From Collinsella sp. An7 (GTDB taxonomy: Bacteria; Actinomycetota; Coriobacteriia; Coriobacteriales; Coriobacteriaceae): a stretch of 64,000 nucleotides of DNA. The position numbers and the translations under genes are program-made. Where the stretch lies: NCBI RefSeq assembly GCF_002159335.1, contig NZ_NFHP01000001.1, forward strand, positions 186,001 to 250,000. The letters are read 5' to 3'. The notes under the pieces were generated by a model. It worked only from the letters and a program-made list of their open reading frames with translations. It made no database searches and was not told the origin of the DNA. Numbering within the stretch: the first letter of the stretch is position 1; each line of letters opens with the position of its first letter. Shown here piece after piece: positions 1,466 through 58,185 of this stretch.

Positions 1466-1527
1466 CGAGGCACCTCTCGGGAGCCGTGGGGATTGCGCTT
1501 CGAATCGACTCGAAGGAGTTGCTCGAG

Positions 1528-1782
1528 ATGGCTGATTCGAACGCACGCATCGCACGCAGGGAGAAGGTTCCCATTCCGGTTCAGGACTACTACAGCGTCG
1601 ACGAGGTGGCCGCCCTGCTGAGGATCAGCAGAAACCGCGTGTACGACCTCGCGAAGGAGCGCGAGGACCCGCTGCCCCTTCGCTGCTTCCCGACCGGATG
1701 GAGAGGGTCGTTCGCCTCGCGCGAGGAGCTGCGCGAATGGGTGTCGCGCAACACGGTGCTCGTGAGGGAGCGCCGGGGATAG
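1528..1782 (+). CDS. Small helix-turn-helix DNA-binding protein
   Basis: 84 aa from the ATG at 1528, chosen over the GTG at 1486 because aaggag lies about 10 bases upstream of it. YSVDEVAALLRISRNRVYDL (about residues 22-41) is an excisionase/MerR-type HTH, followed by a wing ending in REELREWV. A second paralogue-like HTH gene directly after the one at 1202. It probably controls the downstream replication/transfer genes, but no target site was identified. Confidence 0.7.
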   Translation: MADSNARIARREKVPIPVQDYYSVDEVAALLRISRNRVYDLAKEREDPLPLRCFPTGWRGSFASREELREWVSRNTVLVRERRG

Positions 1783-1800
1783 GGGAGAGGAGCTGGCGAG

Positions 1801-2989: not shown

Positions 2990-3166
2990 CGTGAATGCTC
3001 CACCTGGCGGGACCTCCCGTGACGCCGCCCTCGCGCCTCGCGCCCCCGCCCCGGCGTCCCGCGTATAACTCAGCCGAGGGGGCGCGGCGGCACGGCGGTC
3101 AAAAGCTGACCTTGGTGAACCGGGCCGATAACGCCGCCGCGCCCGGAAGGAGTCACGGGAGGTCGC

Positions 3167-4492: not shown

Positions 4493-6279
4493 GCGCGCCT
4501 GCCGTGCGGGGAATCGCGTCCGCGGCGTTGCTGTCCGCCGCGGCGTTCCTCGCCGGCGACCTCTTCGCCTCGTGCGCCGCCACCATGGGAGGGGACCCTG
4601 TCTCCGCCCTCTCCCAGGCGGCGCGCGCCCTCCCGGCGTTCGCCTTGTCGCGCGCCCTGGCCCCCGACCTCTCTCCGCTCCCCCTCTCCGTCGGCGTCAC
4701 CTGCGCCTGCGGCGTGTGGGCGGCGTGGGCCTGGAGGGCGGCGCGGGCCGGGAACTACCGGAGGGGCGAGGAGCACGGAAGCTCGCGGTGGGCGACGGCA
4801 GGGGAGATCTCCCGGTTCGCCGACCAGTCAGACCCCAGGCAGAACATCATCCTGACGAGGAGGTGCTCGCTCGCGATGAGCAGGCAGGACCACGACAGGC
4901 GCTTCGAGCGCACCCGCAACGTCCTCGTCATCGGGGGCCCGGGGTCGGGCAAGTCCCGCGGCTTCGTCGAGCCCAACCTCATGCAGATGAACGCGTCCTA
5001 CTTCGTCACCGACCCGAAGGGGACGGTCGCGGTGCACGTGAGGGGGCTGCTCGAGGACGGCGGCTACGAGGTCCGCGTCTTCGACACCATCGACCCCTCC
5101 CGCAGCGACCGCTACAACCCGATCTCGTACCTCAGGAGCGAGTCGGACATCATCCGGTTCGCCGACTGCCTCGTGCTCAACACCACCGACCCCAAGGCCC
5201 GCTCCAACGACCCGTTCTGGGAGGCAGCGGAGAAGCTGCTCTACACGGCGCTCGTGGCGTACCTCGTGTACCACTGCCCCGAGAGGGACCGGACGATCCC
5301 CGGGATGCTGACGCTGCTCGGGCTCGCGGAGGCGCGGGACGACGACGAGTCGTTCAGAAGCCCGCTCGACCTGCTCTTCGACGAGATAGAGACGGGGATG
5401 CGGTGCATCAGCGCCCCGACGGCGCCGGGAGGCGACCCGCGCGCCTACGACGAGGGGGGAGGGGTCCGGTGGGTGAGGGTCTCGGACCCTCGCTCCCCCG
5501 AGGAGGACTTCGCGCTCGGCAGGTACCGGGCCTTCCGAACGGCGGCGGGCAAGACCCTCAAGTCGATCATCGTCTCGTGCAACGCGCGCCTCGCGCCCCT
5601 GGCGGTCGAGGAGGCGAGGCGCCTCCTCTCGGCCGACGACCTCTCCATCGACAGGATGGGGGAAAGGGGGGAGCGCCGCGCCCTGTTCGCGGTCATGTCG
5701 GACACCAACCGCACCTACTCGTTCCTGCACGCGGTGCTCATGTGGCAGGCCCTCGACCTGCTCTGCGACCGCGCCCTGTCGGAGCACGGCGGGAGCCTGC
5801 CGACCCCGGTGAGCTTCATCCTCGACGAGTTCGCCAACATCGGCCGCATGCCCGACGTGGAGAAGTCCATGGCCGTCGTCCGCAGCCGCAACATCTCGAT
5901 CTCGCCCGTTCTGCAGTCCGTCGCGCAGCTCAAGGGTGCGTACGGGGACGACGCCCAGACGATCGTCGACTGCTGCGACACGGTTCTGTTCCTCGGGGGG
6001 AAGTCGACCGAGACGAACAAGGAGATCGCCGAGTCGGTCGGCAAGGAGACGGTGACCGCCGTGTCGGAGAGCGACACGCGCGGCGCGTCGCCGGGGTGGA
6101 GCTCGAGCAGGCAGGCGTCGGAGCGCGACCTCATCCAGGCAGCCGAGGTGGGCAGGCTCGACCGCCGCAAGGCGATCGTGCTCATCGCGGGCGCCGACCC
6201 GTTCCTCGACGAGAAGTACGACAAGACCATGCACCCAAGCTACCGGCGCATGGTGGAGCTCGGCCGCGAGGCCGAGTGA
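4489..6279 (+). CDS. VirD4/TraG-type conjugal coupling protein (T4CP)
   Basis: 596 aa. The GTG at 4489 overlaps the preceding stop. Upstream in-frame sequence is out-of-frame reading of neighbouring genes. Two N-terminal membrane segments (about 1-25 and 40-80) anchor a cytosolic ATPase. Walker A is GPGSGKS (about 150-156), followed by SYFVTDPKGT. The Walker B region is ILDEFANIGRMPDVEK (about 443-458), and PVLQSVAQL follows. T4CPs deliver the relaxase-DNA complex to the secretion channel at the membrane. It starts the core T4SS block of this ICE. Confidence 0.93.
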   Translation: MSAPAVRGIASAALLSAAAFLAGDLFASCAATMGGDPVSALSQAARALPAFALSRALAPDLSPLPLSVGVTCACGVWAAWAWRAARAGNYRRGEEHGSSRWATAGEISRFADQSDPRQNIILTRRCSLAMSRQDHDRRFERTRNVLVIGGPGSGKSRGFVEPNLMQMNASYFVTDPKGTVAVHVRGLLEDGGYEVRVFDTIDPSRSDRYNPISYLRSESDIIRFADCLVLNTTDPKARSNDPFWEAAEKLLYTALVAYLVYHCPERDRTIPGMLTLLGLAEARDDDESFRSPLDLLFDEIETGMRCISAPTAPGGDPRAYDEGGGVRWVRVSDPRSPEEDFALGRYRAFRTAAGKTLKSIIVSCNARLAPLAVEEARRLLSADDLSIDRMGERGERRALFAVMSDTNRTYSFLHAVLMWQALDLLCDRALSEHGGSLPTPVSFILDEFANIGRMPDVEKSMAVVRSRNISISPVLQSVAQLKGAYGDDAQTIVDCCDTVLFLGGKSTETNKEIAESVGKETVTAVSESDTRGASPGWSSSRQASERDLIQAAEVGRLDRRKAIVLIAGADPFLDEKYDKTMHPSYRRMVELGREAE

Positions 6280-6653: not shown

Positions 6654-7082
6654 GTGCTGAGCGTCGCGGTCCACAAGGACATCTCCGAATACCAGGAAAA
6701 GATCGTCGGGAAGCTGAGCGCGAGGACGCTGGCGTGCGTCGCGCTCGGCCTCGGCGCGTCGGTCGCCGTCGCGGCGGCGCTGAACCTCGCCGCGGGCGTC
6801 GCCCCCTCCGACGCGTCGCTCCCCGTGGTCGCCTGCTCCGTGCCGTTCTGGCTCATGGGGTTCTGGCGGCCGTGCGGCATGGCCCCCGAGCGCTTCGTGC
6901 CGCTCTGGGCGAGGTGGGCCCTTGCTGAGGGGCCGGTGACCTACCGCCCTCCGAGCATCCCAGGGGGATTTAGCCCGGTCCCGGAGGACAGGGCGTACAG
7001 GAAGAGGATGAAGAGGAAGGGGGCGGAGGCCCGTGGCTATGAGAAGGCCCCGAGGGGCTCACGCGGCGCGCGACGCCGGTAG
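6654..7082 (+). CDS. PrgI-family conjugation membrane protein (VirB3-like)
   Basis: 142 aa from a GTG. VHKDISEYQEKIVGKLSARTLAC opens the PrgI fold, followed by two membrane helices (about 23-45 and 55-72) and a conserved aromatic segment (FWRPCGMAPERFVPLW). The tail is basic. PrgI/VirB3 proteins sit in the inner membrane next to VirB4, whose gene overlaps this one. Its size is typical of the family. Confidence 0.85.
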   Translation: MLSVAVHKDISEYQEKIVGKLSARTLACVALGLGASVAVAAALNLAAGVAPSDASLPVVACSVPFWLMGFWRPCGMAPERFVPLWARWALAEGPVTYRPPSIPGGFSPVPEDRAYRKRMKRKGAEARGYEKAPRGSRGARRR

Positions 7083-9498
7083 GGGCTCCGCGAAGGGGTC
7101 CATGGAGCGGCGCCTGAGGCGCCGCGAGAGGGAGCTCGCGGAGAGCTCCGAGGAGCGGCGCCGCATCCGGGCCGCCGCGCGCGACACCCGCACGGCGATC
7201 GGGTACGAGGCGATGTTCCCCGACGGGCTGTGCGAGGTGGAACCGGGGATCTTCTCGATGAGCCTCGTCCTCTCGGACGTCGGCTACCAGTCGGCGCGCG
7301 AGGAGACGCAGCGTGCGATGTTCTCGGCCTACTGCCAGCTCTGGGACTACTTCGGCGCCGGCTCGTCGGTCGAGCTCACGATTGCCAACGTCCCCCTGCC
7401 GGCGGACGAGGTGGGCAGCCGCGAGTTCTTCCGCGACCCCGGGGGAGCGGCGTCGCCGCTCGTCCGGGAGTACAACCGCATCCTCAACGACAAGATGCGC
7501 GAGGGCGTCTCGAACCTCGTCCGGACCAGGACCCTCACCTTCAGCGCCCCCGCGGCCTCGGCCGCCGAGGCCGCGCCCAAGCTCGCGCGCATGCGGGGCG
7601 ACGCGCAGCAGACGCTCGCCCGGATACGCTGCGAGGCGCGGCAGATGGACGGGGCCGAGCGGCTCGCCGCGGTGTCCTCCCTGCTTCGCCCCGGGCGGCG
7701 CGTCCCCTTCGAGTGGGGGATGGTCGCCCCTCAGACGGGGCTCTGCACGAAGGACGTCATCGCCCCCGCCTCGATCGACCTCAAGCCCTCGGGCTCCGCC
7801 TCGTGCATGCTCATCGACGGGGTCTGGGCCCAGGCCCTTCTCATGCGGAGGTTCGGGAGCGAGCTCACCGACCGCTGCATAGCGGACGTGGTGGACCTGC
7901 CGGTCCCGCTCGCCCTCTCCATCCACGCGGCGCCCATCGACAAGGCGCGCGCGGTCGCCTACGTGAAGCAGCGCATCGCGTGGATGGACAAGGAGATCAT
8001 CGACGAGCAGATGCGCGCGGTGAAGAAGGGCTACGACTACGAGATCCTGCCCTCGGAGCTGAAGTACAGCAAGGACGAGGCGGCCGACCTCCTCGACCAC
8101 CTCCAGAACAAGAACCAGAGGCTCTACCGGTACACGGGGGTCGTCGTCGTGTACGCGCGCACGCGGGAGGAGCTCGAGGACCGGGCCGTCCAGGTCGCCT
8201 CGACGGCCCGGCGCAACTCCATCGACCTCGAGCCCCTGTCGTACCGACAGCTCCAGGGCCTCAACACCGCGCTCCCCCTCGGCAACGACCACGTTGGGCC
8301 CACGAGGATGCTGACGACGGCTCAGGTCGCGGTCCAGATCCCGTTCGCCACCCAGGAGCTCTTCGACGAGGGCGGCGGGTACTACGGGCAGAACAAGCAC
8401 TCCGGCAACCTCGTGCTCTGCGACCGCAAGAGGCTCGCGAGCCCCATGGGCTACGTCGCAGGCAAGCCCGGCAGCGGCAAGTCGTTCTCGGTGAAGCGCG
8501 AGATCGAGAACACGGTGCTCGCCCATCCCGAGGACCAGGTGCTCGTCTTCGACCCCGCGGGCGAGTACTCGCTGCTGGTTGAGGCGAACGGCGGGCGCGT
8601 GGTCCGCCTCGCCCCCGGCTCGCGCTCCCGCATCAACCCGTTCGACATGTCGGACGTGGGCCACCTCGCGCCCGCCGCGCGCATGGCGTCGAAGATAGAC
8701 GCCGTGACCGCCATGGCGTCCGCGACGATGGCGGAGGGCGCGGAGGGGCTGACCGAGGCGGACAGGTCGATCATCGCGCGCTGCGTCGAGGCGTCCTACG
8801 CCCGCGCCCGCGGCGCCACGCCCACGCTCGGGGACTTCCAGCGGGAGCTCGCGGCGCAGCCGGAGCCCGAGGCGCGGGACATGGCCCTGAGGTTCGAGCG
8901 CTACGTGACGGGCGCGATGTCGTTCCTGGACGGCCAGAGCGACGCCGACCTCTCGGCGCGCGTGACGAGCGTCGACCTGAGGGAGCTCGGCGGCAGCATG
9001 CGCACCTTCGGGATGCTGTGCGCGCTCGAGGCGGCAAGAAACCTCATGTACCGCAACTTCGAGCGCGGCGTGACCACGTGGCTCTACATAGACGAGGTCC
9101 AGTCCCTCTTCTCGAGCCCCGCCGTCATCGAGTACTTCTCCCGCTTCTGGGCGGAGGGGCGCAAGTTCAACCTCATCTGCACGGGCATGACCCAGAACTC
9201 CGTCTACATGCTCGAGCACGAGGAGGCGCGCAACCTCGTGCTCAACTCCGACTTCGTCCTGCTCCACAAGCAGTCGCCCGTCGACCGGAGGAAGTGGGCA
9301 GAGCTCCTGGACCTATCGGAGCAGGAGGAGGCCCTCATCGACGAGTCCGTGAAGCCTGGGGAGGGGCTGCTCATCGCCGGGGCGGTGCGCGTACCCATCA
9401 AGGACGACTTCCCCAGGGGCATGCTCTACGACCTGTTCAACACGAAGCCCGCCGAGGTCGCCGAGAGGAAGCGGGCCGCGCTGACGGGGGGCCGATGA
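7039..9498 (+). CDS. VirB4-type conjugation ATPase
   Basis: 819 aa from the ATG at 7039, which has cggagg 9 bases upstream. The ATG at 7102, just after the end of prgI, is an alternative start. Walker A is GKPGSGKS (about 475-482), preceded by GYVAGK. Walker B is LYIDEVQSL (about 681-689). The C-terminal RecA-like core continues through ICTGMTQNS and LLHKQSPVDR. VirB4 powers assembly of the conjugation channel. It overlaps prgI and is overlapped by the hydrolase gene (ATGA), so the three are translationally coupled. Confidence 0.94.
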   Translation: MRRPRGAHAARDAGRGSAKGSMERRLRRRERELAESSEERRRIRAAARDTRTAIGYEAMFPDGLCEVEPGIFSMSLVLSDVGYQSAREETQRAMFSAYCQLWDYFGAGSSVELTIANVPLPADEVGSREFFRDPGGAASPLVREYNRILNDKMREGVSNLVRTRTLTFSAPAASAAEAAPKLARMRGDAQQTLARIRCEARQMDGAERLAAVSSLLRPGRRVPFEWGMVAPQTGLCTKDVIAPASIDLKPSGSASCMLIDGVWAQALLMRRFGSELTDRCIADVVDLPVPLALSIHAAPIDKARAVAYVKQRIAWMDKEIIDEQMRAVKKGYDYEILPSELKYSKDEAADLLDHLQNKNQRLYRYTGVVVVYARTREELEDRAVQVASTARRNSIDLEPLSYRQLQGLNTALPLGNDHVGPTRMLTTAQVAVQIPFATQELFDEGGGYYGQNKHSGNLVLCDRKRLASPMGYVAGKPGSGKSFSVKREIENTVLAHPEDQVLVFDPAGEYSLLVEANGGRVVRLAPGSRSRINPFDMSDVGHLAPAARMASKIDAVTAMASATMAEGAEGLTEADRSIIARCVEASYARARGATPTLGDFQRELAAQPEPEARDMALRFERYVTGAMSFLDGQSDADLSARVTSVDLRELGGSMRTFGMLCALEAARNLMYRNFERGVTTWLYIDEVQSLFSSPAVIEYFSRFWAEGRKFNLICTGMTQNSVYMLEHEEARNLVLNSDFVLLHKQSPVDRRKWAELLDLSEQEEALIDESVKPGEGLLIAGAVRVPIKDDFPRGMLYDLFNTKPAEVAERKRAALTGGR

Positions 9499-11072
9499 GC
9501 GCGGCGGGCGGCGCCCGGCGGCGGGTGGAGGCCTCCGACGTCGCGCGGGCGGGACGGACCGACGCGAACCGCGCGGGCATCGTCCGGGGGTCCGCCGACC
9601 GTGCGGGCCGGGCTCGGCCCCGGCCGCGCCCCCGTCGCCGGGGCCCGCGGCGGGGCCGGCGGGGCGACGGGGGCGCGCAGGCGCGCACCGACCTCCGCCG
9701 CCGGGTGAAGCTCTCCGCCCTCTCCTCCGCGGGCGCCGTCTCGGCTGCATCTCCCGCGTACGCGACCGACGAGCGGGAGACGGACCGGGCCGCGAGGGAC
9801 CGCGCCCTCTCCGCCGCGGACCGAGCGTACCGCTCAAGGTCCCGCCGACCGCGCGCCACGGCGCGCGCGGCCCGGCCCGGCGGCCCCCGCAGGGGCGCGC
9901 CGTCGGCGGCAGGGGGTCGTCGGGGGGCCGGCGCCTTCACGCGCGCCCCCGCCAGGGGGCAGCGGAAGGCCGCCGCGGCGCTCAAGGCGAAGGCCGCCGC
10001 GGCCGAAGGGGGCGCCGTCCGCGCGGCCGGGTCCGGAGCGGCGAAGGGAGCCGGGGCGAAGCTCGTCGCGGCCCTCGCCCCGGCCGCGGCCCCCGTCGCC
10101 TGGGCGGCGGGGACGGTCCTCGCGTTCGTCCTCGTCGTGCTCGCCGTCTCGCAACTCGTCTCGGCCATCTTCGGGTTCTGGACGAACGAGGACTCCAAAA
10201 GGTCCCTCGAGGGCCTGCCGCCCTACATCACCTACGAGATGGTGGAGGCCGCGCTCGAGTGCCAGGAGGAGTACGGGCACCCCGCCGGGTGCACCATCGC
10301 TCAGATCATCTGCGAGTCGGGCGTCGGGGACCACCTCTCCGGCCTCGCCGAGCAGGACAACAACCTGTTCGGCATCAAGTGGTCGGTCTCGTTCGCCGGC
10401 TGCCCCGAGGTCAAGGGCAGCTCCGAGTGGGGGACGACCGAGGAGGTCTCCGGCGAGAGCGTCCAGACGACGGCGCGGTTCACGAGGTTCAGGAGCCATC
10501 GCGACTGCATCGTGTTCCGCTCGCGCGTGCTCCTGCAGAACGAGCGGTACGCGGGGAACGCGATCATCCGGGAGGCCATCGCGGAGAGGGACTCCGACCT
10601 CATGGCCGAGGGGCTGAAGGACGCCGGGTACGCCACCGACTCGGCGTACGTCGAGAAGCTCAAGGCGGCCATGGACCAGTGGGGCCTGCGCGCGCTTGAC
10701 GGGATGACCGTGGTTGACCTCGAGGACGGCGGCCTCGGGGCGGGGTCGATCGTCGCGGCGGCGCGCACGCAGCTCGGGGTCCCCTACGTGTGGGGAGGGA
10801 CGACCCCGGGAGTCGGCCTGGACTGCTCGGGGCTCACGCAGTGGTGCTACGCGCAGGCGGGCATCTCGATACCCCGCACGGCAAACGCGCAGATGGCGGG
10901 CGGGGAGGTTGTGCCCCTCTCGTCCGCCGTCCCGGGCGACATCCTGTGGCGCCCCGGTCACGTGGCCATCTACACGGGAGGGGACTCCTACATCCACGCG
11001 CCCAAGCCGGGAGACGTGGTCCGCGAGGCGACCGGTATCAGCTACTTCACCTGCGCCGTCAGGTACCGATGA
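9495..11072 (+). CDS. Bifunctional peptidoglycan hydrolase (glucosaminidase + NlpC/P60) of the conjugation system
   Basis: 525 aa. The first about 200 residues are extremely Arg/Ala/Pro-rich and would be cytosolic. A single membrane helix follows (about 201-225, VAWAAGTVLAFVLVVLAVSQ), then a glucosaminidase/lysozyme-like domain (ICESGVGDH, putative catalytic Glu near 274, NNLFGIKW). The C-terminal NlpC/P60 domain has GLDCSGL (Cys about 444) and PGHVAIY. This is the VirB1/TcpG-type enzyme that locally opens the cell wall for the channel. The basic tract is far longer than in usual homologues. Confidence 0.88.
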   Translation: MSAAGGARRRVEASDVARAGRTDANRAGIVRGSADRAGRARPRPRPRRRGPRRGRRGDGGAQARTDLRRRVKLSALSSAGAVSAASPAYATDERETDRAARDRALSAADRAYRSRSRRPRATARAARPGGPRRGAPSAAGGRRGAGAFTRAPARGQRKAAAALKAKAAAAEGGAVRAAGSGAAKGAGAKLVAALAPAAAPVAWAAGTVLAFVLVVLAVSQLVSAIFGFWTNEDSKRSLEGLPPYITYEMVEAALECQEEYGHPAGCTIAQIICESGVGDHLSGLAEQDNNLFGIKWSVSFAGCPEVKGSSEWGTTEEVSGESVQTTARFTRFRSHRDCIVFRSRVLLQNERYAGNAIIREAIAERDSDLMAEGLKDAGYATDSAYVEKLKAAMDQWGLRALDGMTVVDLEDGGLGAGSIVAAARTQLGVPYVWGGTTPGVGLDCSGLTQWCYAQAGISIPRTANAQMAGGEVVPLSSAVPGDILWRPGHVAIYTGGDSYIHAPKPGDVVREATGISYFTCAVRYR

Positions 11073-11086
11073 GAGAGGAGAGGAAC

Positions 11087-11788
11087 ATGAGAAGGGGGAA
11101 CAGGGTCGTCGCGGCCATCGCCGTCGGCGCGCTCGCGATCGCCCTTGGATCCGGTGTCGCGCGCTGCGCGTTCCGAGGGGAGGAGCCCGCCCACGAGGTG
11201 GCGGGGGAGGAGTCGACGGACCCCGGCGAGGAGGGCGCCGAGTCGGAGGGCGCGGGGCCCCTCGCGGGGACGAGCTGGTCCTCAGGGTCGGGCGAGGCGT
11301 CCTTGACCTTCGGGGAGTCGTCCGTGCGAATCGAATCCCCCTCCGGGACGTCCGACGTGCCCTACGAGGTCCTCGGCGAGTACGAGGCGCAAAACGCCAC
11401 GGTTCTCTCCGCAAGGGTGTTCCTCGGGGGAGCCTGGGCCGACGCCTCCTTCATCCTCGAGGGGGAGGAGGGCTCCCGCAGGCTCGACTGCGACGCCCTG
11501 GACGGATCCCCCTTCACGGAGGACCCCGCGCAAGGGTTCGCGCTCTCCGAGCTCGACCCCGGGTTCGTCGAGCTCGTGGGCGGAGACCGGAGCGCCCTCG
11601 AGGCCGCGGTGGCGGAATGGGCGCGCGGGAACGCGCCGGGCGCAACCGGGGCGTCGTTCGACAGAGAGGCGTACATCGACTACGCGAGCGGACAGGTCAC
11701 GGCGACCTTCACCTGCAGCGACCCCGCGGCGACCGAGGTGACGGTCTCCTACGACGGGTCGGCCTTCTCCGTGTGGGGTATCGGGTGA
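11087..11788 (+). CDS. Exported ICE protein of unknown function in the T4SS operon
   Basis: 233 aa from the ATG at 11087 behind gagaggagagg. A hydrophobic signal or anchor (VVAAIAVGALAIALGSGVA, about 6-24) is followed by a Cys, but VARC is not a good lipobox. The rest is acidic, with a beta-rich middle (GTSWSSGSGEASLTFGESSV). I do not recognise a family. It sits between the hydrolase and the VirB6-like gene, with a GTGA overlap to the latter, so it is probably an external T4SS component. Confidence 0.7.
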   Translation: MRRGNRVVAAIAVGALAIALGSGVARCAFRGEEPAHEVAGEESTDPGEEGAESEGAGPLAGTSWSSGSGEASLTFGESSVRIESPSGTSDVPYEVLGEYEAQNATVLSARVFLGGAWADASFILEGEEGSRRLDCDALDGSPFTEDPAQGFALSELDPGFVELVGGDRSALEAAVAEWARGNAPGATGASFDREAYIDYASGQVTATFTCSDPAATEVTVSYDGSAFSVWGIG

Positions 11789-12777
11789 GGGCGCCGGCTG
11801 CCCGTGCCCGCCGGAGGGGCGCCCTGGCGGCCGGGGTCCTCGCGCTCGCCCTCTGCCTCCTCCTGCCGAGGCCCGCCTACGCGGACATCGCGGGCGACAT
11901 CAACTCGTGGCTCTGCGGCCTCCTGCGCGACCTGTGCAACTGGATCTTCTCCGCGCAGGTGGACGTGCTGTCGGGGATCGGCTACGACGGGGTGCTCTCG
12001 AGCGCCTTCGACTCCATGCTGGGCACGGCGGGCGACGTCACCATGTACGACGTCGCGCGGGGCGTCTGGGAGGCGGCGATACTCCCCATAGGGTGCGGCG
12101 TGCTGTCGCTGTCGTTCACGGTGCAGCTCATACACATCTCCCAGCGCATGGAGGGCGACGCCCGCGTCCCGGGCGTGCGCGAGGTGGTGTTCCTGCTCGT
12201 GTTCTTCGCGGTGTTCCTGTTCCTCGTGCGCAACAGCTTCGACCTCATGGGCTCGGTCTACGAGGTGGTCAGGCTCGCGATCCGCCGCGTCACGGACCTG
12301 TTCGGCGCGGGCGGCTCGCTCGACCTCTCCGAGGTGAGCATCGTGACCACGGAGGACGACGTCGCGTCGCTCCTCGCCATGGTGGTCGTCGCGCTCGTGA
12401 GCTGGGTCGTCGTCATCGCCGCCTACGTCGTCGCGCTCGTGGTGTCGTGGGCGCGCGCCCTGCAGATCTACGTCATGGCAGCCGCGGCGCCGATACCGCT
12501 CTCGGTGATGGCCCTCGAGGAGGGTCGCCAGGTGGGCGTCGGGTACCTGCGCAACTTCGCCGCGGTGTGCCTGGCGGGCCTCATCATCCTGGTCGTCCTG
12601 GTGTCGTTCCCCATCGTGCTCGGCGGCCTCAACGCCGCCTTCGCCGGGACCGGCACGCCCGTCGACTCGGTGGTGGGCGGCCTCTCCTACGCCCTCCAGT
12701 ACCTCGCCATGTGCGTGCTGCTCATCCTCGCGCTCGTGAAGAGCGGGGCCTGGGCCCGCGACATCGTGGGCGGGTGA
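11785..12777 (+). CDS. VirB6/TrbL-like polytopic conjugation membrane protein
   Basis: 330 aa. The GTG at 11785 overlaps the previous stop. It begins with a basic stretch and signal-like helix ending PRPAYA (about 12-34), then a periplasmic-type segment (INSWLCGLLRDLCNWIF). Five or six further membrane helices follow, among them VVFLLVFFAVFLFLV, MVVVALVSWVVVIAAYVVALVV and AVCLAGLIILVVLVSF. This topology and position fit the TrbL/VirB6 group that forms the inner-membrane pore. Similarity is by architecture more than by motif. Confidence 0.8.
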   Translation: MRAPAARARRRGALAAGVLALALCLLLPRPAYADIAGDINSWLCGLLRDLCNWIFSAQVDVLSGIGYDGVLSSAFDSMLGTAGDVTMYDVARGVWEAAILPIGCGVLSLSFTVQLIHISQRMEGDARVPGVREVVFLLVFFAVFLFLVRNSFDLMGSVYEVVRLAIRRVTDLFGAGGSLDLSEVSIVTTEDDVASLLAMVVVALVSWVVVIAAYVVALVVSWARALQIYVMAAAAPIPLSVMALEEGRQVGVGYLRNFAAVCLAGLIILVVLVSFPIVLGGLNAAFAGTGTPVDSVVGGLSYALQYLAMCVLLILALVKSGAWARDIVGG

Positions 12778-12859
12778 CGGGCGTGGGCGCGCTTAGCCGA
12801 GGCCCGCCGCGAGGCCCGCAGAAAGGAAATCCGAATCCGACCGCTAAGGAGATGCACAC

Positions 12860-13360
12860 ATGGAGGAATCCACCGGGACGGCCTCGAGAAAGACCGTCTA
12901 CCTCTCCCTCCACGAGAACTTCGTGAGGGAGAACATCGCGTACACCGACCGGGCGACCGGTGAGGAGCGGACCTTCAACCAGGTCAGGCTCCCCGCCGGC
13001 ACGATCGTCGACGGGGTCGACGTAGGGGGCTACGAGTTCAGCCCGCTCTTCGTCAACCCGTCGAAGTACCGGGGGGAGCACTGGAGGGACATCCCCCTCA
13101 TCGCGGACCGCGAGCTCTGGCTCAGAAAGTCGGTGCTCGACGAGGAGGGCAACCCCGTCCTCGGCGCGGACGGCAGGCCCGAACGGGACCTCGTAAAGGT
13201 CATGCCCGAGCAGGTGAAGGACGCCCTCATCGCCGCAAGGCGCGCGTACGTCGAGCGGATGAGGGAGGCCGACGGGCTGGGCGGCCGTGCCGAGGCCGCG
13301 CGCGCCGCCGCCGGCGCCGCCAGGACGGCCCCGCCCGCGCGCGGAACCCAGACGAGATAG
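12860..13360 (+). CDS. Conserved-looking ICE protein, unknown function
   Basis: 166 aa. A globular first half (KTVYLSLHENFVRENI, RTFNQVRLPAGTIVDGVDV, YEFSPLFVNPSKY, IPLIADRELWLRKSV) is followed by an Ala/Arg-rich tail. No membrane segment or enzyme motif. aaggag lies 8 bases before the ATG. It stands between the VirB6-like gene and the surface adhesin. A DNA-binding or single-strand-binding accessory role would fit its place but is not shown by any motif I can see. Confidence 0.65.
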   Translation: MEESTGTASRKTVYLSLHENFVRENIAYTDRATGEERTFNQVRLPAGTIVDGVDVGGYEFSPLFVNPSKYRGEHWRDIPLIADRELWLRKSVLDEEGNPVLGADGRPERDLVKVMPEQVKDALIAARRAYVERMREADGLGGRAEAARAAAGAARTAPPARGTQTR

Positions 13361-13368
13361 GGGGCGAA

Positions 13369-16155
13369 ATGGTTGAGAAGGAAATCGGCGTCCCGGATCG
13401 GGCTGTACGAGCGGCGCTTGTGGCGGCGCTCGCCCTCGCGATGCTGGCGCAGGCGCTCGTCTCGCCGCTCCGAGCGCAGGCGGCGGAGCAGGTGCCCGCG
13501 GTCTCCCAGGTCAGCTGGGAGGAGGCGAAGCCGAAGATCGAGTCGTACCTGGGCACGCCCTACGTGTGGGGCGGCAAGGACGACTCGGGGTGGGACTGCT
13601 CGGGGTTCGTCGGCTGGGTGATGGTCCACGTCTACGGGACCGAGTGGCCCGGCGGCTCGCCCGGCTACTGCGGCGTCTCGGCGATCAAGTCGTACGTCGA
13701 GGACTCGTGGGTCTTCCACGGCGACTCGGCCGAGGGCTACAACGCGGCGTTCGACGCCGGCACGGTGCGCCCCGGCGACATCATCGTGTTCTACAACGCC
13801 TCCGGCTCGACCGTCCACTCGGCGATCGCGGGGGAGGACCAGACGATCTACCACGCTTGGAGCGAGTACTACGGCACCTGCCAGAAGCGCTTCGACGAGG
13901 TGTGGGGCGTGAACGGCGGCCACGGCAAGGTCTACGCGAGCTTCGACGTGTACCGCGGGCTCGAGGACGCGGGGCGGATCCGGCTCCAGAAGTCCTCCGC
14001 GCTGCCCGCCGCCACGGAAGGCAACCCGAGCTACAGCCTCGCCGGCGCGGAGTACGCGGTCTACGACGACGCCGGCTCGCAGGTGGCCACGCTCGTCACC
14101 GACGAGGCGGGCGCGGCCGGCCCCACGGGCGACCTGCCCAGCGGCACCTACACGGTGAGGGAGACCAAGGCGCCCGAGGGCTTCTCGCTCGACCCGGGCA
14201 CCTACACGGTCGAGCTCGGGAGCGGCACGTGGGACGAGAGCCGCGAGGTCCTCGTGACCCCCGACCCCGAGGCGCCGCTCATGGCAGCCTCCGTCGAGGT
14301 GCGCAAGCACGACTCCGAGACCGGGGAGGGCTCGCCCCAGGGCGGCGCCTCGCTCGCCGGCGCGGAGCTCCTCGTCGAGCACTACGCCGTGGACCCCGGC
14401 GCGGTGGACGGCCCGGGGGACCTCGAGGGGCTGAAACCCGACATGAGCGCCGTGGCGGTCACCGGCGAGGACGGCCGCGCTGAGGTCTCCTCCATGGCGG
14501 CGGCCGACGGGACCGAGGTGCCGGGCGTGCCGCTCGGCGTCCTGCTCGTGACGGAGCGGAAGGCCCCGGAGGGCTACCTCGCCTCCGGCGAGGAGTTCCT
14601 GCTCAAGGTGTCGTCCGAGGATAACGCGACCGTGGAGGTCTCCAACGAGGCCGACTTCGCCGAGGACGTCGCCCGCGGCGGGGTGCGGATTGAGAAGAAC
14701 GACCTCGAGACCGGCGAGAACGCGCCCCAGGGCGGGGCGTCGGTGGACGGCGCGGTCTTCGAGGTCGTGAACGCGTCCGCGAACCCCGTGCTCGTGGGCG
14801 GGGAGGAGGTCGCGCCCGGGGAGGTAGCGCTCACGCTCGAGACCGAGGGCGGGGCCGCGGAGTCCGAGCCCGACGCCCTGCCCTACGGCGACTACCTCGT
14901 GCGCGAGGTCGAGGCGCCCGAGGGCTACCTCGGCACCGACGCCGAGCTCCCGTTCTCCATCGAGAAGGACGGCGAGGTCGTCGAGCTCACCGGGGAGCGC
15001 GCGGTGGCCAACCAGGTCAAGCGCGGCGACCTCGAGCTCGTGAAGGTCTCCGACGGCGACCTCTCCCGCATGGCGGGCGTGCCGTTCCGCATCACCAGCG
15101 CGACCACCGGGGAGTCCCACGTCGTCGTGACCGACGCCAACGGGTACGCCAGCACGGCGGCCTCGTGGAACCCGCACACCGCGTCGACCAACGCCAACGA
15201 CCAGGCGGCCGACGGCTCCTGGGACGCCTCGGCCGGCGTGTGGTTCGGGACGTCGGAGCCCGACGACTCCAAGGGGGCGCTGCCCTACGACACCTACGAG
15301 CTTACCGAGCTCCCCTGCTCGGCGAACGAGGGCAAGGAGCTCCTCGGCCCCATCGAGGTGAGGGTCTACCGCGACGCCGTCACCGTGGGCCTGGGCACGC
15401 TCACGAACGACGACCTGCCCCGCACCGTGGTCTCGAAGAAGTCGGTGACGGGCGAGGACGAGCTGCCCGGCGCGACGCTGCGCGTGTACGACTCGGACGG
15501 CGAGCTCGTGGAGGAGTGGGTCTCCGGCGAGGAGCCCCACGAGCTCACGCTGCTCCCGGGCACCTACACGCTCCACGAGGAGGCGGCGCCCGAGGGCTAC
15601 CTCGTCGCCTCCGACGTGAGATTCGAGGTCGCCGAGGGCGTCCCCGTGACGCAGGTCGAGATGGTCGACGAGCCCACCAGGGTGGAGGCCGGGAAGGTCG
15701 ACGCGGCCACGGGCGAGCCGCTCGCGGGCGCGACCATGCAGGTCGTGGACGCCGAGGGGGAGGTCGTCGAGGAGTGGGTCTCCGACGGCGAGCCCCACCT
15801 CATCGAGGCGCTCGCCCCGGGCGACTACCTCCTCCGCGAGACCGAGGCTCCCGAGGGGTACGCGCTCGCCGAGGACGTCCCCTTCACCGTGGAGGGGACG
15901 GCCGACGCCCAGGCCGTGACCATGGCCGACGAGACCCTGCCGGGGACCGCCCCGGGGACGTCGCCCGGCGGCCTGCCCCAGACGGGCGACTGGTCCTGGG
16001 CCGTGCCCGCCGCGTGCGCCGCCGGGGCCGCCGCCTGCGTCGGCGGCGCCATCGCGCTCGGCTCCCGCCGCCGCGCCAAGGCGGCCCCGGCCGCTCCCGG
16101 ATTCCGGCTCGGCGCCAAGGCCAGCGCGAAGGGAGGCAAGCGATGGAGACCGTGA
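13369..16155 (+). CDS. LPXTG surface protein: NlpC/P60 hydrolase fused to SpaA/Cna-B repeats
   Basis: 928 aa. Signal sequence at about 12-39. The NlpC/P60-like domain (about 45-200) has GWDCSGF (Cys about 77) and histidines in TVHSAI and YHAWSEY. About six Cna-B/SpaA prealbumin-like repeats follow, each closing with a version of VRETKAPEGY, the hallmark of isopeptide-forming domains. The sorting signal LPQTG is at about 869-873, with a hydrophobic helix and an unusually long basic tail (about 35 residues beyond the RRR). Sortase would fix it to the wall. Directly behind the T4SS genes, it probably acts in mating-cell contact and wall remodelling. Confidence 0.9.
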   Translation: MVEKEIGVPDRAVRAALVAALALAMLAQALVSPLRAQAAEQVPAVSQVSWEEAKPKIESYLGTPYVWGGKDDSGWDCSGFVGWVMVHVYGTEWPGGSPGYCGVSAIKSYVEDSWVFHGDSAEGYNAAFDAGTVRPGDIIVFYNASGSTVHSAIAGEDQTIYHAWSEYYGTCQKRFDEVWGVNGGHGKVYASFDVYRGLEDAGRIRLQKSSALPAATEGNPSYSLAGAEYAVYDDAGSQVATLVTDEAGAAGPTGDLPSGTYTVRETKAPEGFSLDPGTYTVELGSGTWDESREVLVTPDPEAPLMAASVEVRKHDSETGEGSPQGGASLAGAELLVEHYAVDPGAVDGPGDLEGLKPDMSAVAVTGEDGRAEVSSMAAADGTEVPGVPLGVLLVTERKAPEGYLASGEEFLLKVSSEDNATVEVSNEADFAEDVARGGVRIEKNDLETGENAPQGGASVDGAVFEVVNASANPVLVGGEEVAPGEVALTLETEGGAAESEPDALPYGDYLVREVEAPEGYLGTDAELPFSIEKDGEVVELTGERAVANQVKRGDLELVKVSDGDLSRMAGVPFRITSATTGESHVVVTDANGYASTAASWNPHTASTNANDQAADGSWDASAGVWFGTSEPDDSKGALPYDTYELTELPCSANEGKELLGPIEVRVYRDAVTVGLGTLTNDDLPRTVVSKKSVTGEDELPGATLRVYDSDGELVEEWVSGEEPHELTLLPGTYTLHEEAAPEGYLVASDVRFEVAEGVPVTQVEMVDEPTRVEAGKVDAATGEPLAGATMQVVDAEGEVVEEWVSDGEPHLIEALAPGDYLLRETEAPEGYALAEDVPFTVEGTADAQAVTMADETLPGTAPGTSPGGLPQTGDWSWAVPAACAAGAAACVGGAIALGSRRRAKAAPAAPGFRLGAKASAKGGKRWRP

Positions 16156-16262
16156 TCGCCTGCGCCGTCACCGCGGTCGTCTCCTCGACGGTCACGCTCG
16201 TCGCCTACGCATGCTGCGTGGCGGCGGGCAACGCGGACCGGAGGGAGGAGGGAGGCGAGTAG
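16143..16262 (+). CDS. 39-aa single-span membrane peptide
   Basis: The ATG at 16143 overlaps the 3' end of the surface-protein gene, with a good site (gggaggcaag) before it. It is one hydrophobic helix (VIACAVTAVVSSTVTLVAYACCVAA) with a charged tail (DRREEGGE). It closes the transfer operon. The function is unknown; small membrane peptides at this position may help assemble the channel. The main evidence is the ribosome site and the clean helix. Confidence 0.55.
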   Translation: METVIACAVTAVVSSTVTLVAYACCVAAGNADRREEGGE

Positions 16263-16268
16263 GCTGCG

Positions 16269-16289
16269 GCCATGACAGCTTGTCATGGC
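16269..16289 (+). terminator. Hairpin after the conjugation operon
   Basis: gccatgaca / tgtcatggc, a perfect 9-bp stem with a 3-base loop, 7 bases after the last operon stop. There is no T run, so it may be a Rho-dependent end, an mRNA stabiliser or an operator. The 330 bases from here to the ECF gene hold no convincing ORF. Confidence 0.4.
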
Positions 16290-16505
16290 AGGGAGCCCCG
16301 TCGAGGCGAAGCTGCCTCGGTGGGGCCCCCTTTATGTCACGGCGGACCGGTGTCCGTGGGGGGGGGTTGTCGGTTGGGTCCCTGCCCGGCTGCTCCGGGG
16401 GGCTGCGGAGTCGGTGGCGCGCCGAAACTCAGGAACGGGGCGCCGTACTGGAGCGTACAGTGGATCTTGCCAAAGCTCTCGCTGCGACCACAGCCTTCCA
16501 AAAGT

Positions 16506-16557
16506 TAGTTAACTCTATCTTTTCTTGACCAAACGGGACATACCTGACCAAATGGGC
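16506..16557 (+). promoter_or_regulatory. Control region of the ECF transporter operon
   Basis: Two features stand out in this 330-bp gap. The motif ttagttaact (16506-16515) contains the palindrome agttaact and recurs at 20520-20529 before the ABC pair. Two direct repeats, tgaccaaacggg (16527-16538) and tgaccaaatggg (16546-16557), lie 19 bp apart, as expected for an AraC-type activator. The DtxR-like and AraC regulators encoded in the same island are the obvious candidates to bind. No footprint can be inferred. Confidence 0.4.
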
Positions 16558-16623
16558 TAGAGGGTAGCCGAGAAGCGCATCATACTCGCAGAGAGTAAAC
16601 CTACTCTAACAAAGGAGCGAGCC

Positions 16624-17232
16624 ATGTCAGAAACCCATTCTGCCTCCCGCGGCCTCAAAGGCCGCGACCTCATCACCGTCGGCATCTTCACCGCGCTCTA
16701 CTTCGTCATCAACTTCCTTTTCATGCTGCTCAGCGGCCTGCACCCCTATCTATGGGTGTTCATGCCCGCCATCGACGCCCTGTTCGCCGGCATCCCGTTC
16801 ATGCTCGCCTGCGCGAAGGTGCCGAAGTTCGGGACCGTCCTCATCATCGGAATGGTTCCCTCGCTCATCTACTTCATCACCGGGATGTTCACGCCCCTCA
16901 TTCTCGGCCTCATGCTCGCTTCGTGCGTCGTCGCCGAGATCATCCGTGCCGCGACGCGCTATGAGAGCTTCGCGGGCAACGCCGTCGCCTACGCCGTGTT
17001 CGGTTTCGGCATGTGCGGAAGCCCGCTGCCCCTGTGGGCCTTCCACGACTCGTTCGTCGCGCAGATCGCCGGGCAGGGCATGGGGGCCGATTACCTCACG
17101 ACGCTCGAGACGGCGGCAAACCCGGGCATGCTCGTTGCCATGTTCGCAGCGACTTTCGTCGCGGGGCTCATCGGCGCCTACATCGCCCGCGGGATGTTCA
17201 AGAAGCACTTCGTGAAAGCTGGCCTGGCGTAA
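16624..17232 (+). CDS. ECF transporter S component (MptD/Trep_Strep family)
   Basis: 202 aa with five or six membrane helices. The opening GRDLITVGIFTALYFVINF and the segment HPYLWVFMPAIDALFAGIPFML are typical of the Trep_Strep/MptD family of putative substrate-binding ECF subunits. The gene is followed without gaps by an EcfT and a double-ATPase gene, so this island carries its own dedicated group-I-like ECF transporter. The substrate is not known. The DtxR-like regulator and ABC pair downstream suggest a metal or metal chelate. The ATG has aaaggagcg upstream. Confidence 0.88.
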   Translation: MSETHSASRGLKGRDLITVGIFTALYFVINFLFMLLSGLHPYLWVFMPAIDALFAGIPFMLACAKVPKFGTVLIIGMVPSLIYFITGMFTPLILGLMLASCVVAEIIRAATRYESFAGNAVAYAVFGFGMCGSPLPLWAFHDSFVAQIAGQGMGADYLTTLETAANPGMLVAMFAATFVAGLIGAYIARGMFKKHFVKAGLA

Positions 17233-43830: not shown

Positions 43831-44346
43831 CTAAGCAAGATCCTCATAGTCCTCCTCCCCGAGCGCCTCGGCGGCGAGCGCCGCGGCGTCCCTCATCTCG
43901 GGCGTCACCCCCATGGCGGCGCACCGCTCCTCCAGGGGCGCGGACGGGTTCGCCCGCTCGAGGAGCGCGTCGACCTTGAGGACCCTGCCGATGGCGCTCC
44001 CGCCCCCGTGCTCGAGCCACTTGCGGTCCGCCGCCTCGAGGAGCCTGTCGTCGACGAAGCCGTCGCCGAGCCTCCACCATGCCGCCCTCCCGTCGCGGAT
44101 CACCGCCTCCGCAGAGGAGAGCTCCTCGGCGCTCGCGGCGAGGAGGCGCCACCAGCGCCGCCGCACCGCCACCGGCGCGGTCCCGTCCCCCGCGGCGCCC
44201 ATCTCGTAGCGGTCCGCCTCGATCCACAGCCCGTCGGGCTCGAGCGACAGCCTGGTCTCGGTTGCGATGCACGCATCCGCATGTCCCGGAGGCTGCACCT
44301 CGAACACGCTGTGGGGCTTGTCGCGGTAGACGATCTCGACGATCAA
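43831..44346 (-). CDS. Unrecognised protein coupled to the relaxase
   Basis: 171 aa from the TTG at 44346, preceded by gggaggagg (5-base spacing) and overlapping the relaxase stop (TTGA). The first half is beta-rich (VEIVYRDKPHSVFEV, CIATETRLSLEPDGLWIEADRYE), the second helical and acidic. I know no family. Tight coupling to the relaxase gene suggests a relaxosome or mobilisation partner. Confidence 0.7.
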   Translation of the reverse strand: MIVEIVYRDKPHSVFEVQPPGHADACIATETRLSLEPDGLWIEADRYEMGAAGDGTAPVAVRRRWWRLLAASAEELSSAEAVIRDGRAAWWRLGDGFVDDRLLEAADRKWLEHGGGSAIGRVLKVDALLERANPSAPLEERCAAMGVTPEMRDAAALAAEALGEEDYEDLA

Positions 44347-45524
44347 CGCTGCCTCCTCCCTTCGTCTCGATTCCGCTCGGGGTCCCTGCCCCGTGTCGTC
44401 TGCCGGCACGGGGCGCCCGCCTCGCCCCCGCCGCGGGCGGGGCTCCTCCGCGACCGCTCTGACCTCTGGGGGAGGAGGCCCTTCTCGGCGGCGAACTCGC
44501 GGGCGCGCCTGAGCGCCTCCGCCTCCCCGTAGCGCCCCGCCCTCTCCGCGGCGGCGGCCATGCCGTCGAGCGCCGCCAGGCTGCGCGCCCTGCGCCTCCA
44601 TATGGTGGAGGCGGCGTCGGCGAGCCGGTCGAGCTCCGCGCGGCCGCCCACGGCGACCGCCTCCCTCGCCGCGCGGATCGCCGCGCCGCGGTCGATGGGA
44701 GGGGCTCCGCCGATGACGGCGGCGCAGACGGACGCCCTTCCGTAGTCGAGGCCGAGGCGCTCCCCGCGGATGCGCCGCGAGGGGCTGTCGGCGAGGGAGT
44801 ACACCCAGTCCCTCCTGGGCCCTCTCCTGGCGGCGTCGGCGAGCTCGACCCCCATGGCCGCGAGGAGCGAGCGGTACTCCGCAGGGGATGCGGCGAGGGC
44901 CCTCGCGACGTCGGCCCTCGCCCGGATGTCGGCGACCCACGACCTCTCTCCCCGCGCCTCCGCCGCGCGCTCGCCGCGGCTCCGTCTGGCCCGCGCCGTG
45001 GGCCGGGCGAGGGGCTCGTTCGAGAGGTGGGGGAGGCCGCGCTCCGCCTCGAGCCGCTGGAAGGAGCGATTGAGCTCGAGGGGGTCGGGGACCTGGAGCC
45101 GCCTCCCCGTCTCGAGCGAGGTGTTGTTGACCACGACGTGCGCGTGGGGGATGCGCCCCCCGTTGTCGTCGTGGTAGACGATGGCGACCTGGTGGTCGGG
45201 GAAGTGCTCCGACGCCCACTCGACGGCGAGCCCCCTCAGGGTGGCAAGGTCGACGCGGGAGCCGGGGTCGGGGGAGAGGACGTAGTGCTTCCACGTCCTC
45301 GCGGCCCGCCCGCGCCACGCCCTCCCGTTTCCGGCGGCCTCCCTCACCGAGTCCATCTCCGCGGCCCAGTCGCAGGCGCCGTAGCGCGGGAGATCGCCCT
45401 CCCAGCCCTCTATGGGCGCCCCGATGTTCAGGAAGTCGCGGGCGAGCGCCCTGCCGTCCCTCTCGAGGTAGCGCATGACCCCGCGGGCCCCGGTGTGCCC
45501 GCTTATCGCTTTGACGATTCCCAT
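44343..45524 (-). CDS. MOBP-type relaxase (mobilisation nuclease)
   Basis: 393 aa. MGIVKAISGHTGARGVMRYLERDGRA supplies the N-terminal Tyr (about Y19). The metal-binding motif is HDDNGGRIPHAHVVVNNT (about 141-158), the HxDxxx-PHxH pattern of relaxases of Pfam PF03432. The C-terminal half is Arg/Ala-rich helical. It nicks at oriT, stays bound to the 5' end and leads the strand through the T4SS. The operon order mobC-relaxase is typical. Confidence 0.9.
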   Translation of the reverse strand: MGIVKAISGHTGARGVMRYLERDGRALARDFLNIGAPIEGWEGDLPRYGACDWAAEMDSVREAAGNGRAWRGRAARTWKHYVLSPDPGSRVDLATLRGLAVEWASEHFPDHQVAIVYHDDNGGRIPHAHVVVNNTSLETGRRLQVPDPLELNRSFQRLEAERGLPHLSNEPLARPTARARRSRGERAAEARGERSWVADIRARADVARALAASPAEYRSLLAAMGVELADAARRGPRRDWVYSLADSPSRRIRGERLGLDYGRASVCAAVIGGAPPIDRGAAIRAAREAVAVGGRAELDRLADAASTIWRRRARSLAALDGMAAAAERAGRYGEAEALRRAREFAAEKGLLPQRSERSRRSPARGGGEAGAPCRQTTRGRDPERNRDEGRRQR

Positions 45525-57111: not shown

Positions 57112-58185
57112 TCAGTTCTCCCTTCTCGCCCCGTCCAGGGCGCGGGCCATGTCGGCCTGGACGCTGGGGAACAGGTGGGCGTAGCGGTAGGTGATGTCGG
57201 CCGCCTCGTGGCCCATGCGGTCCGCGATGGCGAGCGCGGTGAAGCCCATGTCGATGAGCAGCGACACGTGGCTGTGCCTGAGGTCGTGGATGCGGATGGG
57301 CTCGAGGCCGGCCGCCTTGCTCCCGCGCGCCATCTCGTGGCTGAGGAAGTACTTGGTCACGGGGAAGATCCGCTCGTCGGGGTCGAGGCCGCGCCCGGAG
57401 AGGAACGCCTCCATCTCCTCCGCGTAGAAGTGCGGCATGGCGATGACGCGCTTCGACTTCGGGGTCTTCGGGTCGGTGAGGACGTCCTGCCCGTCGATGC
57501 GCTGGTAGGACTCCGCGACGGTGAGGGTCCCCCGCTCGAAGTCGAACCTCCGCGGCTTCAGGGCGAGCAGCTCCCCCTCGCGCACGCCGCACCAGTAGAG
57601 CGTCTCGAAGGCGTGGAAGGAGAGCGGCTTGTCCATGATCTCGTCCGAGAACCTGAGGTACTGGTCCTTGGTCCAGAACCTCATCTCGCCGGCGGACTTC
57701 GAGCCCATGGATTCGGCCCTGCGGCACGGGTTCGACGAGAGGCCGTAGAAGCGCACGGCGTGGTTGAAGAGTGCGCAGAGCTGGTTGTTGACGGTCTTGA
57801 GGTAGGTCGCGGAGAACCCGCCCCCGCTCGGCTTCTCGAGGGCCATCAGCTCGTTCTGCCACCTCACGATGTCGACCGGGGCGATCTGGTTCATGCGCTT
57901 CTCGCCCAGGTAGGGGAGGATGCGCTTCGTGATGATGGACTCCTTGGTCTTCCAGGTGTTCAGGCGCAGGCGCGGCCCCATGTCCTTCTTGTAGAGCTCG
58001 AGGAAGTCGACGAGCTTCATGTCCATGTCGCCCGCCTGCACGGCGTAGAAGTCGCGCTCCCACGAGAGCGCCTCGGGCTTGGTCTTGAAGCCCCGCTTCA
58101 CCTTGTGGGCGCGCTTGCCGTCGTAGGTCTTGTACCAGGCCTGGACGTACCAGGTGCCGTTCCGCTTATCCCTTGTCACCGACAT
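57112..58185 (-). CDS. int: Tyrosine recombinase (ICE integrase)
   Basis: 357 aa from the ATG at 58185; it overlaps the xis gene by 20 bp. An AP2-like arm-binding N-terminus (RDKRNGTWYVQAWYKTYDGK), core-binding domain (about 65-170), and catalytic domain with CGVREGELLAL (R about 202), HDLRHSH (H about 299, R about 302), MGHEAADITYRYAHL (H, and nucleophile Tyr about 333). It catalyses insertion at the guaA tail and, with Xis, excision. Arm sites at 904-940 and 59153-59171. Confidence 0.95.
   Translation of the reverse strand: MSVTRDKRNGTWYVQAWYKTYDGKRAHKVKRGFKTKPEALSWERDFYAVQAGDMDMKLVDFLELYKKDMGPRLRLNTWKTKESIITKRILPYLGEKRMNQIAPVDIVRWQNELMALEKPSGGGFSATYLKTVNNQLCALFNHAVRFYGLSSNPCRRAESMGSKSAGEMRFWTKDQYLRFSDEIMDKPLSFHAFETLYWCGVREGELLALKPRRFDFERGTLTVAESYQRIDGQDVLTDPKTPKSKRVIAMPHFYAEEMEAFLSGRGLDPDERIFPVTKYFLSHEMARGSKAAGLEPIRIHDLRHSHVSLLIDMGFTALAIADRMGHEAADITYRYAHLFPSVQADMARALDGARREN

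Follow-up and report, generated by a model that had tools for sequence, protein, structure and literature searches.

A predicted NlpC/P60 hydrolase on a sortase-type stalk, encoded behind the type IV secretion genes of a Collinsella integrative element

The window, a stretch of 64,000 nucleotides from Collinsella sp. An7 (RefSeq assembly GCF_002159335.1, contig NZ_NFHP01000001.1, positions 186,001 to 250,000 of the forward strand), carries the transfer operon of an integrative and conjugative element (ICE). We studied the gene that follows the type IV secretion system (T4SS) genes of this operon and encodes a predicted surface protein. A first-pass annotation, made from the sequence alone, had described the region 13369-16262 as a conjugation-linked protein that is both a peptidoglycan hydrolase and a SpaA-type adhesin. 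The start of this region is that of the surface-protein open reading frame (ORF), but the latter stops at 16155 and position 16262 is the end of a small overlapping ORF. The gene and its parts are as follows.

13369..16155, + strand: surface protein of 928 aa (signal peptide, NlpC/P60 head, about six SpaA/CnaB-type stalk domains, LPQTG)
13489..13968, + strand: NlpC/P60 head, about residues 41-200, with C77, H150 and H162 (from Pfam, conservation, model and PDB matches)
13969..15970, + strand: stalk of about six beta domains (from Pfam, PDB sequence matches and model)
15022..15411, + strand: stalk core module of 130 aa, common to surface proteins with a TED (thioester domain) head
15973..16155, + strand: LPQTG, membrane helix and basic tail, the last codons overlapping the ribosome-binding site and start of the next gene
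16143..16262, + strand: 39-aa single-helix membrane peptide with a 13-nt overlap, in close relatives only

The protein begins with a hydrophobic signal segment. Pfam NLPC_P60 (PF00877) matches residues 62-163 with 37.2 bits for a cut-off of 23, and SpaA (PF17802) matches five stretches (E 5.5e-67). In a model of residues 38-928 built from nine sequences, of modest confidence (mean pLDDT 70.4), we observed the head followed by about six beta-sandwich-like domains. Six K...E...N/D sets, candidates for isopeptide bonds, can be read in the stalk sequence, the predicted set of each domain combining one Lys with a Glu that lies in an AP-G-[YF] strand or its equivalent and with a terminal Asn/Asp; the six or so isopeptide-type repeats announced by the first-pass annotation are thus found again. 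PDB entry 7k1u is matched by stalk residues 208-543 (E 3e-44), and the last stalk domains match SpyCatcher/FbaB-type domains. With NCBIfam NF033902 (SpaH/EbpB major pilins) the protein scores 51.6 bits, below the cut-off of 95, so that an identity as a sortase-assembled major pilin is unsupported. By Pfam the window protein has no match to TED, to the ester-bond (TQ/VaFE) domain PF18202, which occurs in the relatives L055, L058 and L060 (L numbers are loci, G numbers genomes), or to a glycosidase domain, and it therefore lacks the architecture of VirB1-like hydrolases.

At the other end of the same chain, the LPQTG (residues 869-873) is followed by a hydrophobic stretch and by a basic tail of about 30 residues; the sequence thus has the LPXTG motif, hydrophobic helix and basic tail of a sortase-anchored wall protein. 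Two sortase genes are present in the genome, neither of them within the window, and a host sortase probably anchors the protein to the wall. The sorting motif varies among NlpC-headed relatives (LPQTG, MPSTG, FDKTG, LPKTG).

The head was also modelled separately from 21 sequences, with high confidence (pLDDT 92.9, pTM 0.90). In the PDB, Foldseek ranks the SagA NlpC/P60 domain first (E 1.2e-8), and VIA-align superposes it on an NlpC/P60 protein of Bacillus cereus with Z 15.7 and an rmsd of 2.1 over 125 residues; the non-catalytic NlpC/p60 protein RipD is also among its structural matches. C77, named by the first-pass annotation, is invariant in all 13 aligned heads together with H150 and H162, which disposes of the missing His that would have spoken against an active enzyme. 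D76, F175, D176, W179, G184, H185 and K187 are invariant in the same 13 heads. In the alignment, the head family has two features absent from canonical NlpC domains, an insertion that follows the first helix and an extension at the C terminus. For the two closest pairs of matching heads, L047/L048 and window/L045, the head has a dN/dS of 0.03 and 0.09, respectively, and the remaining pairs give 0.18 to 0.59, indicating that purifying selection acts on the head. From the model and the alignment, it is a papain-fold NlpC/P60 domain with an intact Cys-His-His site and a predicted peptidoglycan hydrolase; an inactive or decayed enzyme is rejected for now, in view of the intact triad and of the low dN/dS of the closest pairs.

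The gene lies on the same strand as the genes of the transfer operon, and a relaxase and an integrase are found further on.

4504..6279, + strand: VirD4/TraG-type coupling protein (Pfam)
6654..7082, + strand: PrgI family protein (Pfam)
7039..9498, + strand: VirB4/TraC-type ATPase (Pfam)
9705..11072, + strand: VirB1-like hydrolase, glucosaminidase and NlpC/P60 (Pfam)
11087..11788, + strand: secreted or lipoprotein-like protein of the T4SS operon
11785..12777, + strand: VirB6-like polytopic membrane protein (from position and hydrophobicity; no Pfam match)
12860..13360, + strand: small conserved protein of 166 aa, marker for the census below (no Pfam match)
44343..45524, - strand: relaxase, MobA/VirD2-like (Pfam)
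57112..58185, - strand: tyrosine recombinase, integrase (Pfam)

A gene for a small hydrophobic protein also belongs to the operon, between the VirD4-type and PrgI genes. The earlier T4SS assignment is borne out by this set. The surface-protein gene had been placed immediately after the T4SS genes; it is in the same-strand operon, but the 166-aa gene stands between it and the VirB6-like gene. Only 8 bp separate the stop of the 166-aa gene from the start codon of the surface protein, and a search of the + strand from 12600 to 16700 for terminator-like sites gave none. The 9705-11072 protein combines glucosaminidase and NlpC domains, the glycosidase or transglycosylase plus peptidase architecture which we take to be that of VirB1-like T4SS hydrolases such as PrgK or Orf14. 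Since the element has this hydrolase of its own, the surface protein differs from the usual VirB1-like hydrolase, and the two NlpC domains are alike only around the active-site Cys (14/27 identical).

We then looked at the conservation of the fusion of head and stalk, which the first-pass annotation had proposed to survey in other ICEs. In the class (396 genomes), a head match with E 1e-50 or better is present in 15 genomes other than that of the window. Within the window's family (65 genomes) there is no other strong head match, and six other genomes match weakly. In our named collection the fusion is present in 15 loci at 47-93% identity; its carriers are Olsenella, Thermophilibacter provencensis and other Atopobiaceae, a Coriobacteriaceae metagenome-assembled genome, Adlercreutzia hattorii, Gordonibacter, Paraeggerthella hongkongensis and other Eggerthellaceae, and also Bifidobacterium merycicum, which belongs to another class, Actinomycetes. 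A chance fusion in a single genome is rejected, given these 15 loci and the class genomes with a head match. The SpaA stalk follows the head wherever the reading frame runs far enough; the frame is broken by an insertion in L088 and by a contig end in L090. In the viral_contigs scan the best matches had E 3e-9 or weaker, none of them at family level, the loci not being inspected individually. The titles and abstract openings of the literature searched describe no conjugative element whose SpaA/CnaB LPXTG protein bears an NlpC head.

The NlpC-headed gene occurs in two arrangements. It follows a window-like T4SS operon in G213, G276, G316, G265 and G073, only the end of the operon lying on the stretch or contig in G276 and G316. 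In seven other loci (G220, G233, two copies in G177, two copies in G281, and G362) a VirD4 gene is located 16.7-18.2 kb downstream on the same strand, from start to start, and ParA/ParB genes lie shortly upstream in six of the seven, the contig ending there in the seventh. G356 has ParA/ParB, and no VirD4 match was found anywhere in its genome. Going by these gene orders, integrative elements of two kinds carry the fusion, and the survey thus found it conserved beyond the window's ICE.

Some of the loci deserve further description. About 13.7 kb of element DNA, including the T4SS operon and the NlpC-headed gene, is 97% identical between L087, from Bifidobacterium merycicum, and L055, from G265, a genome of the window's own class. 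In L046 (6182-8635) an in-frame deletion between repeats has removed the last stalk domain, the LPQTG and most of the membrane segment. An insertion of roughly 2.4 kb, for which Rfam gave no match, splits the hydrolase head of L051 (about 1198-3657).

The stalk is more widespread than the head, its 130-aa core being detected in 150 of the 396 class genomes at E<=1e-15. We fetched 40 stalk-core loci without the NlpC head of the window's type, 35 of which had readable N termini (L245, L250, L255, L258 and L273 were dropped from the head counts for an unreadable N terminus, L250 being read later in the census in another frame). Pfam assigned to the heads of these 35 loci TED_2 (12), TED (7), NLPC_P60 (2) and CHAP (2). 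L249 shows a TQXA domain and VaFE repeats by NCBIfam, TQXA being, we presume, a thioester-domain name. A fourth head type, starting near NPFENGD or similar, is found on the same stalk in L261, L266, L269 and L270, and the two tested, L261 and L269, gave no Pfam match. G008 (L245) has the stalk core at 92% and no head, and looks like a 5'-truncated remnant.

To avoid a choice by the stalk, we carried out a census of the position that follows the 166-aa gene, hereafter the slot. This gene was found in 62 of the 396 class genomes, and its list gives 83 places (84 rows, two rows being one place), of which 79 were examined; G099:C2, G278:C27, G223:C33 and G249:C3, at or near contig ends, were left out. 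The rows are not independent, many of the elements being near-identical. Thioester-type heads account for 60 of the slot loci; the NlpC head of the window and a second papain-like head account for 6 each, and the remaining 7 are other or unreadable. The 60 comprise 51 TED_2-like heads, 4 TED-like heads and 5 L247-type loci tied to TED by a local profile only, since Pfam gave no TED match for L247; L364 was partly masked. Among the seven others, L325, L360, L362 and L379 show a YCID/YCIQ/YCIDV-like motif with no confident profile match, L324 is truncated, L358 is an ORF without head chosen by the script and L382 is an unrelated gene. With the second papain-like head counted, hydrolase-type tips amount to 12/79. 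A sorting-like motif, searched with a loose pattern, is present in 71/79 slot proteins, so that an anchored surface protein is a near-constant part of the operon.

The second papain-like head is related to the NlpC head (hhalign probability 98), keeps a Cys and two His in 5/5 aligned sequences and is present in G052, a genome of the same genus as the window. A distant relationship of thioester heads to the NlpC head has no evidence in its favour, hhalign having aligned only the signal peptide between NlpC and TED_2 heads. A direct comparison was possible between L254 (papain-like) and L249 (TED), whose aligned DNA blocks are 93%, 87% and 84% identical. For about 0.9 kb the alignment of the two is interrupted, the break lying within the part of the surface-protein gene that encodes the signal peptide. 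Identity is 69% for the signal peptides and 76% for the stalks, and no significant match was obtained between the heads. This pattern indicates that the head was replaced as a cassette of about 0.9 kb between flanks of 84-93% identity, by exchange and not only by divergence.

Between the window and G213, DNA identity is 95-98% in VirB6 and mostly 92-100% in the downstream genes, but falls to 72-78% over the 166-aa gene and the signal-peptide region and to 79-92% over the head, with a synonymous divergence of 0.32 for the head and 0.16 for the stalk. The window head is 94-98% identical to that of G220, which belongs to the other kind of element. On a quick tree built from the 166-aa gene, the distribution of the three head classes requires no fewer than 5 changes, the minimum possible being 2; this tree has many open forks, and the gene may recombine or travel with the head. 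Taken together, the sequences indicate that it is the stalk and anchor which define the slot, the hydrolase being a minority tip there. The first-pass annotation had named homologues without the hydrolase as a point that would count against it; such homologues exist (the 60 thioester-type loci of 79), but they reflect an exchange of tips rather than a simple loss. Its overall description thus stands for the predicted hydrolase, the isopeptide stalk, the sortase signal and the link to a conjugation operon, and has to be amended in that the hydrolase is only one, infrequent tip of this slot.

The 39-aa membrane peptide said to overlap the 3' end of the gene is indeed there. It is present at 82-97% identity in the close relatives L045, L046, L047, L048 and L245, and its GGAGG and start codon lie inside the last codons of the surface gene in the window and in 4/5 of these relatives, the fifth, L048, having been missed by the script pattern for this overlap. 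Relatives without the peptide have shorter, often acidic tails. The terminal GGKRWRP or similar is constrained by these two signals of the overlapping gene, and the long basic tail, which had been called unusual, is real and is partly imposed by them. Among the codon differences in the peptide, synonymous ones are about as numerous as non-synonymous ones, which makes its coding status likely, short of proof.

Several features of the surroundings were also recorded. The genes at 16624-19417, just 3' of the surface-protein region and presumably encoding an ECF-type transporter by their order, are mostly 92-100% identical in DNA to G213 and look like element cargo. Positions 64-640 are the 3' end of a gene which we take to be guaA-like; the matches of most related genomes stop at its stop codon, suggesting insertion of the element there. 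No second copy of this 3' end, which would mark the right end of the element, was found within the window. A ParA gene and a neighbouring ParB-like gene (59693-60878) lie beyond the integrase and are the same pair as that shortly upstream of the NlpC-headed gene in the second kind of element. A putative amidoligase (PF12224; 49718-51001, minus strand) is located in the relaxase-side part of the element.

On balance, and with moderate confidence, we favour the view that the window protein is a surface attachment protein of the ICE, built like the thioester-isopeptide mating adhesins and with the tip exchanged for an NlpC/P60 enzyme. This reading relies on the TIE adhesin of pLS20, which is encoded in a conjugation operon, has CnaB domains topped by a thioester tip, must be supplied by the donor but not by the recipient for conjugation to be efficient, and loses its function when the thioester-forming Cys is changed (PMC8092201); the window protein has the same slot and stalk type. 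The stalk would hold the enzyme tip beyond the donor wall, where it would engage, and probably cut, stem peptides in the peptidoglycan of a neighbouring cell. Such an action may help to dock donor and recipient, or may thin the recipient wall at the contact point, and the separate glucosaminidase-NlpC protein would work on the donor's own wall. We hypothesize, in other words, that the tip acts on the recipient wall. More tentatively, the slot could be a cassette of exchangeable mating-adhesin tips in which covalent thioester tips and papain-fold hydrolase tips are functional alternatives; the NlpC tip on the donor surface would then act in trans on the peptidoglycan of the recipient, docking to the partner's wall and opening it, and the kind of tip carried would influence partner choice.

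Several observations weigh against the favoured reading. Most loci in the same slot have no hydrolase tip, so that the enzyme is not required for the function of the slot; the second kind of element has the NlpC-headed gene outside the T4SS operon; and L046, without LPQTG and most of the membrane segment, has nevertheless kept the head and the 39-aa gene. In addition, thioester adhesins also serve attachment to hosts, and the parallel with pLS20 alone does not fix a recipient cell as the target. The enzyme-tipped stalk might then be a cargo for colonisation or antagonism, acting on host glycans or proteins or on the walls of competitors with no role in transfer. Related stalk proteins are named collagen-binding adhesins, and GI1 of C. 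difficile encodes one, the majority of the tested GI1 strains forming collagen-dependent biofilm (PMC7747571), which keeps host attachment a live rival; the stalk core is also found in 150/396 class genomes compared with 62/396 for the marker gene of the slot. We nevertheless consider this cargo explanation rather unlikely, since only 8 bp separate the gene from a conserved transfer-operon gene in front of it, a sorting-like motif accompanies the slot in 71/79 cases and the corresponding pLS20 protein acts in conjugation (PMC8092201).

Two other explanations concern the enzyme itself. The NlpC tip might bind peptidoglycan without cutting it, as an affinity adhesin. Inactive VirB1 homologues have been proposed as adhesins, as cited in a T4SS review (PMC12857230), and overexpression of the hydrolase-domain proteins TraAd/TrsAd leads to clumping (PMC11067333); RipD, among the structural matches of the head, is non-catalytic as well. 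The invariance of Cys-His-His in 13/13 heads and the low dN/dS in the closest pairs make binding alone improbable. Alternatively, the target of the enzyme would be the donor's own wall rather than another cell, for instance to give passage to the stalk or the channel. Autolysins are common among NlpC/P60 enzymes, and the gene is co-oriented with the T4SS operon; however, the glucosaminidase-NlpC protein of the element already fits this role, and outward display is the better fit for a tip carried distally on a long anchored stalk, in a slot that thioester adhesins otherwise occupy. Of all these explanations, we regard an action on the donor's own wall as the least probable.

How the Gram-positive conjugation machine passes through the recipient wall is an unsettled question, and the transfer operon described here encodes, beyond the usual wall hydrolase, a second predicted one at the tip of an anchored stalk. 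If this tip acts on the recipient, contact with the partner and opening of its wall would be linked in one exchangeable domain, and a simple genetic test of wall handling would become possible in gut commensals. Stalked conjugation adhesins themselves are known; the exchange of their tip for one of NlpC type was not described in the titles and abstract openings searched.

The closest known counterpart, the pLS20 TIE adhesin (product of gene 34), shares with the window protein a signal peptide, an N-terminal cysteine-based tip, a CnaB-type stalk and a gene in a conjugation operon (PMC8092201). The window protein differs by its NlpC/P60 tip in place of the thioester domain and by its LPXTG signal, which the pLS20 protein lacks. 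Of the features of TIE adhesins it has the CnaB/SpaA stalk and neither the thioester nor, by Pfam, the ester-bond (TQ) domain, whereas its relatives L055 and L058 do have TQ domains. The stalk match 7K1U is a fragment of a SrtB-anchored collagen-binding adhesin of C. difficile (PMC10586155). Such an adhesin, encoded on plasmid NZ_CP149680 beside conjugation genes annotated YdcP, FtsK, MobT and ArdA, aligns with the stalk over residues 200-681 at 39.5% identity; unlike the window protein, it has a thioester-like head (TED E 0.0028, under the cut-off) and TQ ester domains, and no NlpC. The lactococcal TraAd/TrsAd are also proteins with peptidoglycan-hydrolase domains proposed as conjugation adhesins, and their authors suggest a possible action on the recipient wall; in that source, however, they appear as membrane-anchored proteins with peptidoglycan-hydrolase and CHAP domains, no stalk and no LPXTG, and as the sole VirB1-like proteins of their systems (PMC11067333). 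Only one of the three predicted hydrolase domains of PrgK is active (PMC11323569). The VirB1-like hydrolases as a group (PrgK, Orf14, the 9705-11072 protein) have in common with the window protein a papain-like wall-hydrolase domain tied to a Gram-positive T4SS, but they are without its display on an anchored stalk, and the window's element encodes one of them in addition to it.

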